Assembly: GCA_938030705.1 (NCBI GenBank)
Contig: CALHIR010000009.1
Span: forward strand, 1-44,397
Source of the DNA: Candidatus Poseidoniaceae archaeon
GTDB taxonomy: Archaea > Thermoplasmatota > Poseidoniia > Poseidoniales > Poseidoniaceae
Length of the DNA stretch: 44,397 bases
Reading direction: 5' to 3'
A model generated the notes under the pieces. That model did not search any database. It was not told the origin of the DNA and saw only the letters and a list, made by a program, of their open reading frames with translations. Below, piece by piece: positions 10,363 through 19,387 of this stretch (positions are counted from its first letter, which is position 1; every line of letters starts with the position of its first letter). The position numbers and the translations under genes are program-made.

Positions 10363-11013
10363 ATGGTCGTAAAGAGTGCAACGAAAAAGCGATTGATGGA
10401 ACTGGGCGTCTCTGAAGAGTACGCTCACAAACTGGCCACCGATCGAAACATGACCGACATCAAGAACATGTCTCACGACGATGTCGCCTCAACCCTCGGC
10501 ATCTCCAAAGACGCTGAAGAATTCATCAACACCATGCAAATCATCGCCGAACAAGGCTCTCGACGACGAGCAGCCAAGAAGAGCACCAAAATCACCATCC
10601 GGGCCAAAGCCGTCGACGACATGGACCGCCCAGAAATCACCTCTCGTTTCAACGCCCTCAATCATGAACTGGTCCCCCACCAGGAACTGGTAGGCGAGCC
10701 AAACATCTCTCCTGAGGCCCAACTCTCCATCGAGATGGAAGAACTCGCCCCCTGGAAAATGGTTCAACCGGACCCCGAGACCGGAGAAGAGCGCCTTGCG
10801 AAAGAACTCCTCCCAAAGATCCTCATCACCGACCCCGTTGTTCAAGTCATCAAAGAACTCGCAGAAAACGCTGATTCAGCAGCCCACATGGCCGACCCCA
10901 ACCACACTCCGTTGGCGGCTGGATGGATTGCTGACCGCGTGCTCAAGGTCATCCGGCGCTCCCCATCAGCCGGACAGACGGTGGCTTACCGGCTCATCGT
11001 GGAGGGGAACTGA
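10363..11013 (+). CDS. rpoH: RNA polymerase subunit H (Rpo5) with extra N-terminal domain
   Basis: At 216 residues this is far longer than the usual archaeal subunit H (about 75-85). The C-terminal part is Rpo5: NHELVPHQELV, LLPKILITDPVVQVIK, and KVIRRSPSAGQTVAYRLIVE. A loop of about 20 residues is inserted between the last two blocks. The first 70 residues are a separate helical domain (GVSEEYAHKLATDRNMTDI...DDVASTLGIS) that looks like a helix-hairpin-helix fold and is nearly the same as the N terminus of the A'' subunit encoded downstream. A basic linker (RRRAAKKSTK) joins the two. Role: assembly and DNA-entry jaw of RNA polymerase. It opens the rpo operon, 12 nt before rpoB. Confidence 0.93.
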   Translation: MVVKSATKKRLMELGVSEEYAHKLATDRNMTDIKNMSHDDVASTLGISKDAEEFINTMQIIAEQGSRRRAAKKSTKITIRAKAVDDMDRPEITSRFNALNHELVPHQELVGEPNISPEAQLSIEMEELAPWKMVQPDPETGEERLAKELLPKILITDPVVQVIKELAENADSAAHMADPNHTPLAAGWIADRVLKVIRRSPSAGQTVAYRLIVEGN

Positions 11014-11025
11014 GGAGGAGATATC

Positions 11026-17600: not shown

Positions 17601-17822
17601 AACACCGCCAACCGAATCATCCAGTTCAGCTACGGCGAGGACGGTATTGACCCGTCCCGTGGTGTCCACGGATCACCGTTCAACATCGACGTCATCGTCG
17701 ACGCCGCACTCGGAACCGAGGGTGGACTCGAAGTTGACCGAGAATCCTACGAATTCAGCGCCGATGAAGAAGACATGGGCGCATGGGAAGAAGAAGCCGA
17801 ACACACTGGAGGTGAGGACTGA
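14640..17822 (+). CDS. rpoA1: RNA polymerase subunit A' (Rpo1N) with lineage-type insertion
   Basis: This 1060-residue protein is longer than the usual A' (about 870-910). The catalytic magnesium loop [11 protein letters not shown] is intact, as are [13 protein letters not shown] and the bridge-helix region [21 protein letters not shown]. The first zinc site reads CPTDNC...DSPGHFGH; the third ligand, normally Cys before PGH, is Ser. The second site (CNDC...CMHC) is intact. Between the GDGRRVKI strand and VERHLIDGD there is an insertion of roughly 140 residues (about 415-560) with its own cysteine pairs (CHNPEC, CPHCG) and an HSC. Overlaps rpoB by 4 nt and shares one base with rpoA2 (TGATG). 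Confidence 0.98.
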
Positions 17823-19387
17823 TGGTCGTCAAGAGTGCAACCAAGAAGAAGCTCATGGATTTGGGCATTGAAGAAAACTTTGCCCACGCCCTGGCTGACG
17901 ACCGAAAGTGGGACGATGTCAAGGTCATGACCCAAGCCGATATCGCAAAAATTTGCGAAACCGACTCGGAGACTGCAGGCAACATTCACGCCACCATCAT
18001 CGCTGCCACTCAAAAAGGCCGTGATGGCGACGCCGAAACCACCGGACCGGTCACCAAGGTTCGTCTCTCGGGGCGAAGCACGAAGCGCCGAACCCGTGCC
18101 AAGACCATCGTCGACATGGAACCTTACGATTACGATCGTAAGATGCTGGCCTTGGAAAACGAATTGGCCGCTGACCCCGTTTACAAGAAATTGGAAGAAG
18201 CCGTTGCTGAAACCGGCTCCGGCCGCTTCACCAACCGAATTCTTGCTGATTTGACCGTCGCATGCCACAGCCGTGGGAAGAAGAAGTTGACCAAGCCTCA
18301 AGCCAAGAAAGTCATTGACGAAGCCATCGTGGCCCTTGAACGTGCCAGCATCGACCCTTACGAAGCTGCAGGTATCATCACGGCACAGTCGATTGGTGAA
18401 CCAGGCACACAGATGACCATGCGTACGTTCCACTATGCTGGTGTGGCAACCGTCAACGTCACCCAAGGTCTTCCCCGTATCATCGAGATCGTGGACGCCC
18501 GAAAGGTGCCGCAAACACCAACGATGACCATCCGTTTGAAGGACGATCAGAAGCAAGACGGAAAGGCTGCCCAAAAACTCGCAGCCGCCATTGAAGTCAC
18601 CACCACGGTGAACATTGCAACGTTGGAGACCGACGTCGCCCAGCGACGACTCGTTCTGAACCTCAACAAAGGTAACCTCAAGCAGAAAAACATGACGGCT
18701 GGAGAGGTCAAGGACAAACTCGAGCGTGCCACACGACTCTACGTGCAAGCAGACAAGGAAAAGAACCCTTCAACGCTCACGATGATTCCCGGTGTGCATG
18801 CCGAAGAAGACTTGGCAGACCTCGCAGAGAATCCACCATCGTACACGATGCTCCTCCAACTGGAAGAAAAAATTCGTGACATGCGCCTCAAGGGAATTCC
18901 CGGAATTGAGCGAGCGAATCCCCAACTTGATGATAAGACGGGCGAGTATTACCTCTCCACCATTGGAAGCAACCTCCCCCGTGTTAGCGAACTTGAGAAC
19001 ATCGATCGTTCCCGCACTTACACCAACAACATCATCGAAATCTACGACTACTTGGGCATTGAAGCTGCTCGCCAAGCCATTGTTAACGAATTGCAGATGA
19101 CCCTCGACGGTGCTCGCCTCGAAGTCGATGTCCGCCACCTGTTGATGGTTGCAGATGTCATGACCTCTGAAGGTGAGGTCCGAGCCATTGGTCGACACGG
19201 TGTTTCCGGAACCAAGCACAGCATTTTGGCTCGTGCGGCCTTCGAAGTCACCGTCAACCACCTGCTCAAGGCCGGTATCATCGGCGAGAAAGACTACCTA
19301 ACCGGTGTTGCAGAGAACATCATCGTCGGTCAACCCATTTCCTTGGGAACCGGCAGTGTGGCCTTGTACTACATCCCGGAAGAGTGA
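17822..19387 (+). CDS. rpoA2: RNA polymerase subunit A'' (Rpo1C) with extra N-terminal domain
   Basis: 521 residues, against about 380-400 in most archaea. The core A'' is clear: [20 protein letters not shown] (trigger loop region), [21 protein letters not shown], and a C-terminal block with [26 protein letters not shown], where the active-site and jaw elements lie. The first 70 residues duplicate the N-terminal domain of Rpo5 (both open MVVKSATKK, then L-M-x-LG and AHxLAxDR); a basic linker (about 80-100) connects it to the core. The ATG overlaps the rpoA1 stop by one base, so the A' and A'' polypeptides should be made in step. Confidence 0.98.

Follow-up and report, generated by a model that had tools for sequence, protein, structure and literature searches.

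The 44,397-nucleotide stretch of a Candidatus Poseidoniaceae archaeon analysed here (contig CALHIR010000009.1; hereafter the window) carries an RNA polymerase operon in which two subunits, Rpo5 (subunit H) and A'' (Rpo1C), open with the same N-terminal domain. The organism belongs to Marine Group II (MGII), whose members rank with the most abundant archaea in surface ocean waters. We propose, with a probability of about 85%, that a divergent domain resembling the helix-hairpin-helix (HhH) fold, found at the N-terminus of A'' in many genomes of the phylum, was copied once to Rpo5 in the stem of MGII, and that strong selection, in part specific to each subunit, has preserved both copies ever since.

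One domain on two polymerase subunits

The first-pass annotation of this DNA had described about 70 residues of the same extra domain at the start of both proteins. The common domain is confirmed: both begin with MVVKSATKK, 25 of their first 43 residues are identical, and BLASTP aligned the two N-termini at 37% identity over 115 columns (residues 1-103 of Rpo5 and 1-115 of A'', E=1e-16 for this single comparison). The likeness also extends beyond the first nine residues, as had been claimed. Between residues 10 and 43, 16 of 34 positions are identical, BLASTP still gave E=1.3e-13 when the first nine residues were removed, and a profile comparison of residues 10-66 returned a probability of 99.1 and a score of 85.7, compared to a best score of 21.2 in 200 column shuffles. 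We therefore rejected the idea that the likeness is restricted to the opening nine residues. The proposed length, however, has to be shortened. Because the basic linkers that follow the domains fail to match at the profile level (0.7%), we consider the common unit to be about 60 residues rather than 70, and common descent of the linkers was rejected at that level; the window's own two linkers do share a BLASTP stretch (5e-5). A single-sequence search of the window's own genome with the Rpo5 domain matched just these two places. Judged from its sequence, one domain is thus duplicated on two subunits of the same polymerase.

The genes lie in the order rpo5, rpoB, rpoA', rpoA'', all on the + strand. 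Their features, with positions in the window, are:

10240-10315, tRNA-Lys, preceding rpo5
10363..11013, +, rpo5 (rpoH), RNA polymerase subunit Rpo5/H, long form, 216 residues (PF01191, 34.2 bits, cut-off 23.5; best Foldseek matches archaeal Rpo5 chains)
10363..10554, +, Rpo5 N-terminal domain, probably HhH-like, residues 1-64 (BLASTP and profile match to the A'' N-terminus; five predicted helices)
10555..10647, +, Rpo5 basic low-confidence linker, residues 65-95, net charge +6 (predicted local distance difference test, pLDDT, below 50 for residues 66-108)
10648..11010, +, Rpo5 assembly domain (Rpb5_C) with insertions, residues 96-216 (Pfam, solved chains and Foldseek; boundary set by eye)
11026..14643, +, rpoB (Rpo2), undivided, 1205 residues (Rpb2 domains 1-7 in Pfam)
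14640..17822, +, rpoA' (Rpo1N), 1060 residues, its stop overlapping the A'' start (Rpb1 domains in Pfam; sequence)
17822..19387, +, rpoA'' (Rpo1C), 521 residues (TIGR02389, 424.4 bits, cut-off 420.65)
17822..18013, +, A'' N-terminal domain, probably HhH-like, residues 1-64 (BLASTP, profile comparison and tree)
18014..18166, +, A'' linker with basic patch, residues 65-115 (model and charge count)
18167..19384, +, A'' core, residues 116-521 (TIGR02389; best solved A'' chain matching from residue 124; boundary set by eye)

Neither N-terminal stretch matched a Pfam or NCBIfam family above cut-off, and solved chains align with the later parts only (Rpo5 from residue 144 onward; the best A'' match from residue 124). 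The window Rpo5 scored 40.2 bits with NF007129, below the whole-protein cut-off of 83, and TIGR02389 fell just under its cut-off in 9 of the 35 MGII genomes that it matched in our phylum sample. The Rpo5 assembly domain itself (10648-11010), with its insertions, is about 121 residues long, where whole solved Rpo5 chains have 77-84.

Gene conversion was rejected as the main cause of the likeness. Nucleotide identity over 45 codons was 0.594 within genomes vs. 0.587 between genomes (p=0.0026), a tiny effect, and concerted evolution of the two copies would accordingly seem to have been slight at most.

Distribution and origin

Our MGII set consisted of 77 loci from an Rpo5 scan of named species genomes (labelled Poseidonia, Poseidoniaceae, Poseidoniales, Euryarchaeota, Thermoplasmatota or similar), 28 further MGII loci and the window. 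It holds 106 Rpo5 and 79 A'' frames; three locus pairs are identical DNA, so that 100 of the 103 motif-matched Rpo5 genes and 74 of the 77 motif-matched A'' genes are distinct. The group names used here (Thermoplasmatota, and within it MGIIa-like, MGIIb-like and Marine Group III (MGIII)-like) are our own assignments, made partly from kinship. The domain opens all 79 A'' frames and 105 of the 106 Rpo5 frames, the remaining one (L078) being cut by a contig end. The 103 Rpo5 proteins start with MVVKSATKK (84), MAVKSSTKK (16), MVVKSSTKK (2) or MAIKSSTKR (1); outside the motif, L065 has one change in the start and L074 several. MVVKSATKK also starts 77 of the A'' proteins, with an ambiguous letter in L055 and one change in L090. 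Among 155 genomes of the phylum, a profile of the MGII domain found at least one copy in 37 of 37 MGII genomes and at least two in 33. The four with a single copy comprise one with no A'' match (G041), two with no Rpo5 match (G042 and G047) and one (G018) whose Rpo5 match is 121 bases away from the end of a contig.

Archaeal RpoH is stated in PMC3906176 to have no N-terminal extension. MGII Rpo5 departs from this statement in 105 of 106 frames, and does so with a domain that is common to two core subunits. Open-access literature searches returned no paper on either domain; in the accessible text of PMC13257274 (2026, on small archaeal subunits), which covers Rpo6 and Rpo8, the Rpo5 passages do not include such a domain and Poseidoniales does not occur in the main text.

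No Rpo5 with this domain was found outside MGII in the sample of 155 genomes. The MGII profile gave a single weak match there (G221, E=0.006), on a different contig from the Rpo5 of that genome. In the 21 MGIII-like genomes, all 18 matched Rpo5 frames are 81-117 residues long, mostly too short for the domain plus core, and among six longer non-MGII Rpo5 frames (L200-L205), the four recognisable as Rpo5 showed no such domain. Beyond the phylum, the comparison covered four distinct PDB Rpo5 chains (77-84 residues) and papers only. For A'' the picture differs: of the 118 non-MGII genomes, 45 have a related HhH-like domain in the A'' reading frame, as found with a profile (A6) of non-MGII A'' N-termini. 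This count relied on inspecting the length and position of the frames and excludes a 49-residue contig-end piece (G180); 19 of these 45 genomes supplied rows of the profile and 26 did not. The earlier view that ordinary H and A'' lack the domain, which would make it lineage-specific, consequently holds for Rpo5 as far as sampled and for the matched solved A'' chains, but not for A'' across the phylum.

In these relatives the domain occupies the same site as in MGII A'', the extreme N-terminus. It differs in typically starting with MAKKDT or similar, where MGII has MVVKSATKK, in sometimes preceding a beta-type domain or further HhH repeats, and in being seen on A'' and not on Rpo5, while MGII has it on both. 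Read by eye (loci L095-L099, L106, L108-L112, L120-L137 and L142-L214), the A'' N-termini of the phylum are diverse, with the HhH-like domain alone, the same plus a beta-type domain, or a beta-type domain alone; others have canonical HhH repeat arrays, lysine-rich tails or no extension. MGIII-like A'' frames reach about 760-775 residues, with an extension of about 400 made of an HhH-like domain, a beta-type-looking part and a second HhH-like stretch. A profile of that extension (A4) matched 67 of the 155 genomes. What it matches in the 37 MGII genomes is not A'' but a third protein; outside MGII, the loci that were read are A'' frames, one of them a 49-residue piece. The A'' N-termini of this phylum thus appear to be a little-explored place of domain gain by the polymerase.

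The link between the MGII copies and these relatives comes from profile comparisons. A profile of 23 non-MGII A'' N-termini, chosen by eye for a recognisable start from a collection in which many others have a different extension or none, matched the MGII Rpo5 domain at 95.7% (score 43.2, best of 200 shuffles 18.6) and the MGII A'' domain at 88.4% (score 32.1, best of 200 shuffles 17.4). As a control for the general HhH pattern, 13 canonical repeats of long A'' extensions gave 63.1% and 29.4%, respectively, and from residue 15 on only, and the link to the A'' N-termini therefore exceeds the common HhH pattern. Profile A6, formed by 19 of the 23 sequences, picked out the Rpo5 domain at E=1.6e-6 in a search of the whole window genome. 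The second HhH-like unit of MGIII-like A'' was rejected as a source (8.0% and 1.4%). In a tree of 83 domains, thinned by identity and built on 66 columns, the MGII copies fall together (100/99) and split into an A'' group (98/91) and a weak Rpo5 group (83/70), each with MGIIa- and MGIIb-type members. The copying would have run from A'' to Rpo5, because A'' has the domain elsewhere and Rpo5 was not seen to; the newer copy would be the one on Rpo5, because the related domain sits on A'' in so many non-MGII genomes.

Conservation, fold and charge

Across 178 sequences from the two subunits, selected by the start motif, seven residues are invariant (K4, S5, T7, K8, L11, L24 and A25) and five more are nearly so (a single exception each for V3, K9 and K34, two each for H22 and D27). 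Besides these shared positions, each subunit has near-fixed marks of its own: R10, N29 and I33 in 102 Rpo5 sequences, and K10, K29, W30 and V33 in 76 A'' sequences. A large part of residues 1-34 does not vary in either the Rpo5 or the A'' alignment; rows more than 95% identical, with ambiguous letters or without an ATG start were omitted from these alignments (A2 and A3). The shared invariant residues suggest that both domains may bind one common kind of ligand.

We compared codons 2-9 in 40 MGII loci, out of 76 in which both genes are present; amino-acid differences past codon 65, where indels left unaligned inflate the values, were disregarded. Pairwise amino-acid difference was 7% in Rpo5 and 0% in A'', a figure that collection by start motif favours keeping low, and synonymous codons differed in 48% and 31%, respectively. 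Since synonymous codons differ while residues stay, the N-terminal stretch is coding and selected. An RNA-level signal in the first codons was rejected, as most third positions vary, the main exception being GCA at codon 6. This alanine codon (10378-10380 in rpo5, 17837-17839 in rpoA'') is GCA in 80 of 84 MGIIa-type Rpo5 genes and 57 of 62 A'' genes.

The predicted structure of Rpo5 (mean pLDDT 69.6) has helices at residues 5-13, 18-25, 30-34, 38-45 and 52-71. Block means of pLDDT are 80-86 for residues 1-60 and below 50 for residues 66-108, after which comes the known assembly domain. An (HhH)2 domain consists of two helix-hairpin-helix units with a connector helix between them, and the modelled helix order would be compatible with this arrangement. 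Pfam HHH_5 was found in 1 of 20 MGII members (0.05), more rarely than ADH_Fe_C (3 members, 0.0061), and in 5 of 19 relatives (best 7.4e-6). The relatives' A'' profile matches topoisomerase V (2.5e-16 over several repeats, best single repeat 0.052), NusA (0.0015), DNA ligase (0.0019) and XPF (0.015); it also hits helical repeats that are not HhH (IcmE/DotG at 5.7e-9, BurrH at 3e-5). The five model helices and the profile link to HhH proteins via the relatives indicate that the MGII domain is probably HhH-like. The helix-hairpin-helix fold suggested at first thus remains probable in general shape, without its GhG hairpin: compared to the repeats of topoisomerase V, NusA, ligase and XPF, the MGII domains have no GhG hairpins and no direct match to an HhH chain.

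Several observations weigh against the reading of origin, fold and selection given above. At E<=0.001, profile A6 found the Rpo5 domain in 17 of 37 MGII genomes and the A'' domain in 0 of 37, the latter being linked by profile-profile comparison only; we take this difference to mean that the A'' copy drifted further than the Rpo5 copy. The MGIII-like domain alone matched the MGII copies weakly (12.5% and 0.5%). The tree has few columns, unsettled bootstrap values, long branches and a midpoint root. The MGII sequences were gathered by start motif, such that conservation of the motif residues is partly built in, and sequences outside the motif set do depart from it (L074 at S5, K9, L11 and H22, L090 at V3, L065 at V2). 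At a mean pLDDT of 52.8, the prediction for A'' was of too low a quality to build on. Foldseek on the Rpo5 model returned no HhH structure, and no match at E<=0.001, among the best 50 of 429 matches; the top 39 of these are Rpo5/Rpb5-type chains, with archaeal Rpo5 chains best (E 1.3e-3 and up). A PDB profile search with the MGII domain found no HhH chain and three weak, unrelated matches. The GhG hairpin, which is the DNA-gripping element of classical HhH motifs, occurs at hairpin 1 in 1 of 102 Rpo5 and 0 of 76 A'' sequences, and at hairpin 2 in none. Lastly, the mean net charge of the domain is -1.9, -1.9, -1.9 and 0.0 in four sets, the 0.0 being that of MGIIb-type A''. The missing GhG and the slightly acidic to neutral domain argue against simple DNA gripping of the HhH kind.

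Possible roles in the polymerase

The linkers have a different character from the domains: their best 20-residue stretch carries a charge of at least +5 in 180 of 180 sequences measured. The explanation we favour, taken as a whole at a little short of even odds, is that after copying from A'' to Rpo5 the two domains, each on a flexible basic linker, came to serve as extra modules of the polymerase that touch nucleic acid; this proposed mechanism is slightly more tentative than the explanation as a whole.

Such a role would find parallels in two known systems. According to PMC6690254, the N-terminal jaw of eukaryotic Rpb5 (142 residues in yeast) touches downstream DNA, and archaeal Rpo5 lies near downstream DNA. 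In S. shibatae, according to PMC2675907, Rpo13 docks in a positively charged groove that is left open by the absence of a jaw. Rpo13, found in Sulfolobales and Desulfurococcales, is a small, helical component that sits next to Rpo5; its lysine-rich tail has been proposed to reach the downstream DNA (same source). The MGII Rpo5 domain resembles the Rpb5 jaw in being N-terminal to the same assembly domain and differs in its size of about 60 residues and its HhH-like character; we rejected the idea that it is an Rpb5 jaw, no such family appearing in Pfam matches up to E=1. It differs from Rpo13, a separate subunit with a helix-turn-helix, in being fused to Rpo5, and the two are likened by description, not by sequence.

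With Rpo5 near downstream DNA, the Rpb5 jaw in contact with it and the groove within reach of a tethered domain, the Rpo5 domain might act as a surrogate lower jaw. It would stand beside the incoming downstream DNA, where Rpb5 has its unrelated jaw and Sulfolobales have Rpo13, and could aid melting or hold the DNA, and the A'' copy could contact a ligand of the same type from a second position. In its boldest form, which we regard as rather unlikely, this would be MGII's own lower jaw: an A'' HhH-like module copied to Rpo5, the two tethered domains together gripping downstream DNA or a bivalent factor, as a third independent answer, besides the Rpb5 jaw and Rpo13, to the empty groove by archaeal Rpo5. 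The ligand and the effect of the domains are conjectural here, as are their placement in the enzyme and the contact with DNA, RNA or a factor at two places that the first-pass annotation had suggested. MGII would offer a natural experiment on how the space beside Rpo5, which holds the jaw in eukaryotes and Rpo13 in Sulfolobales, contributes to DNA melting and processivity.

The strongest alternative, still on the unlikely side, is protein docking. Both domains would recognise a common factor, one linked to transcription, chromatin or the ribosome, and the enzyme could carry two copies of it or a single bivalent partner; in a similar way, the HhH-like repeats of NusA dock on the C-terminal domain of bacterial alpha. 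The missing GhG hairpin, a domain that is not basic, the retention of identical charged residues in the two copies and the relatives' distant profile match to NusA are all consistent with docking. So is the existence, close to the Rpo4 gene in the genome of the window, of a third MGII protein bearing this type of domain; the partner is hypothetical, however, and the basic linkers point to nucleic acid too.

This third protein (L215:1618-2703, - strand) has 361 residues and a related HhH-like N-terminus (E=8.3e-15), followed, as read by eye, by a likely coiled coil and a zinc ribbon, and it belongs to no Pfam or NCBIfam family. It lies downstream of an Rpo4-like gene (NF011552, E=3.8e-12, below cut-off), a DUF655-like gene and KsgA, the latter two recognised by eye, and a KsgA motif adjoins it in 6 of 8 loci checked. 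Its N-terminus was matched in 37 of 37 MGII genomes, in two of which the frame is only 67 residues long. It could be a polymerase-linked factor.

Less probable again is an inter-subunit clasp, in which the two domains would pair and tie Rpo5 to A'', so as to stabilise or gate the enzyme. That related domains occur on two subunits of the same complex, both of them tethered by a linker, would suit this, and the subunit-specific near-fixed residues (R10 and N29 vs. K10 and K29; I33 vs. V33) are as expected for the sides of a heterodimer. That the domains merely assist subunit assembly or stability, with no role in transcription, fits their N-terminal position; we consider it improbable given the invariance of much of the first 34 residues in both alignments, with charged residues shared. 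Finally, although TTG starts 15 and GTG 3 of the 103 Rpo5 genes, a chance likeness or a wrong start codon can be dismissed, since the profile match is far above the shuffles and synonymous variation lies beneath the conserved residues.

Elsewhere in the window, two large genes were noted. Positions 19784-23266, 3' of the polymerase operon, encode a 1160-residue protein with many Asp-type calcium-binding repeats and, by eye, a likely C-terminal membrane segment, and positions 28943-37894 (- strand) form one open reading frame of 2983 residues.

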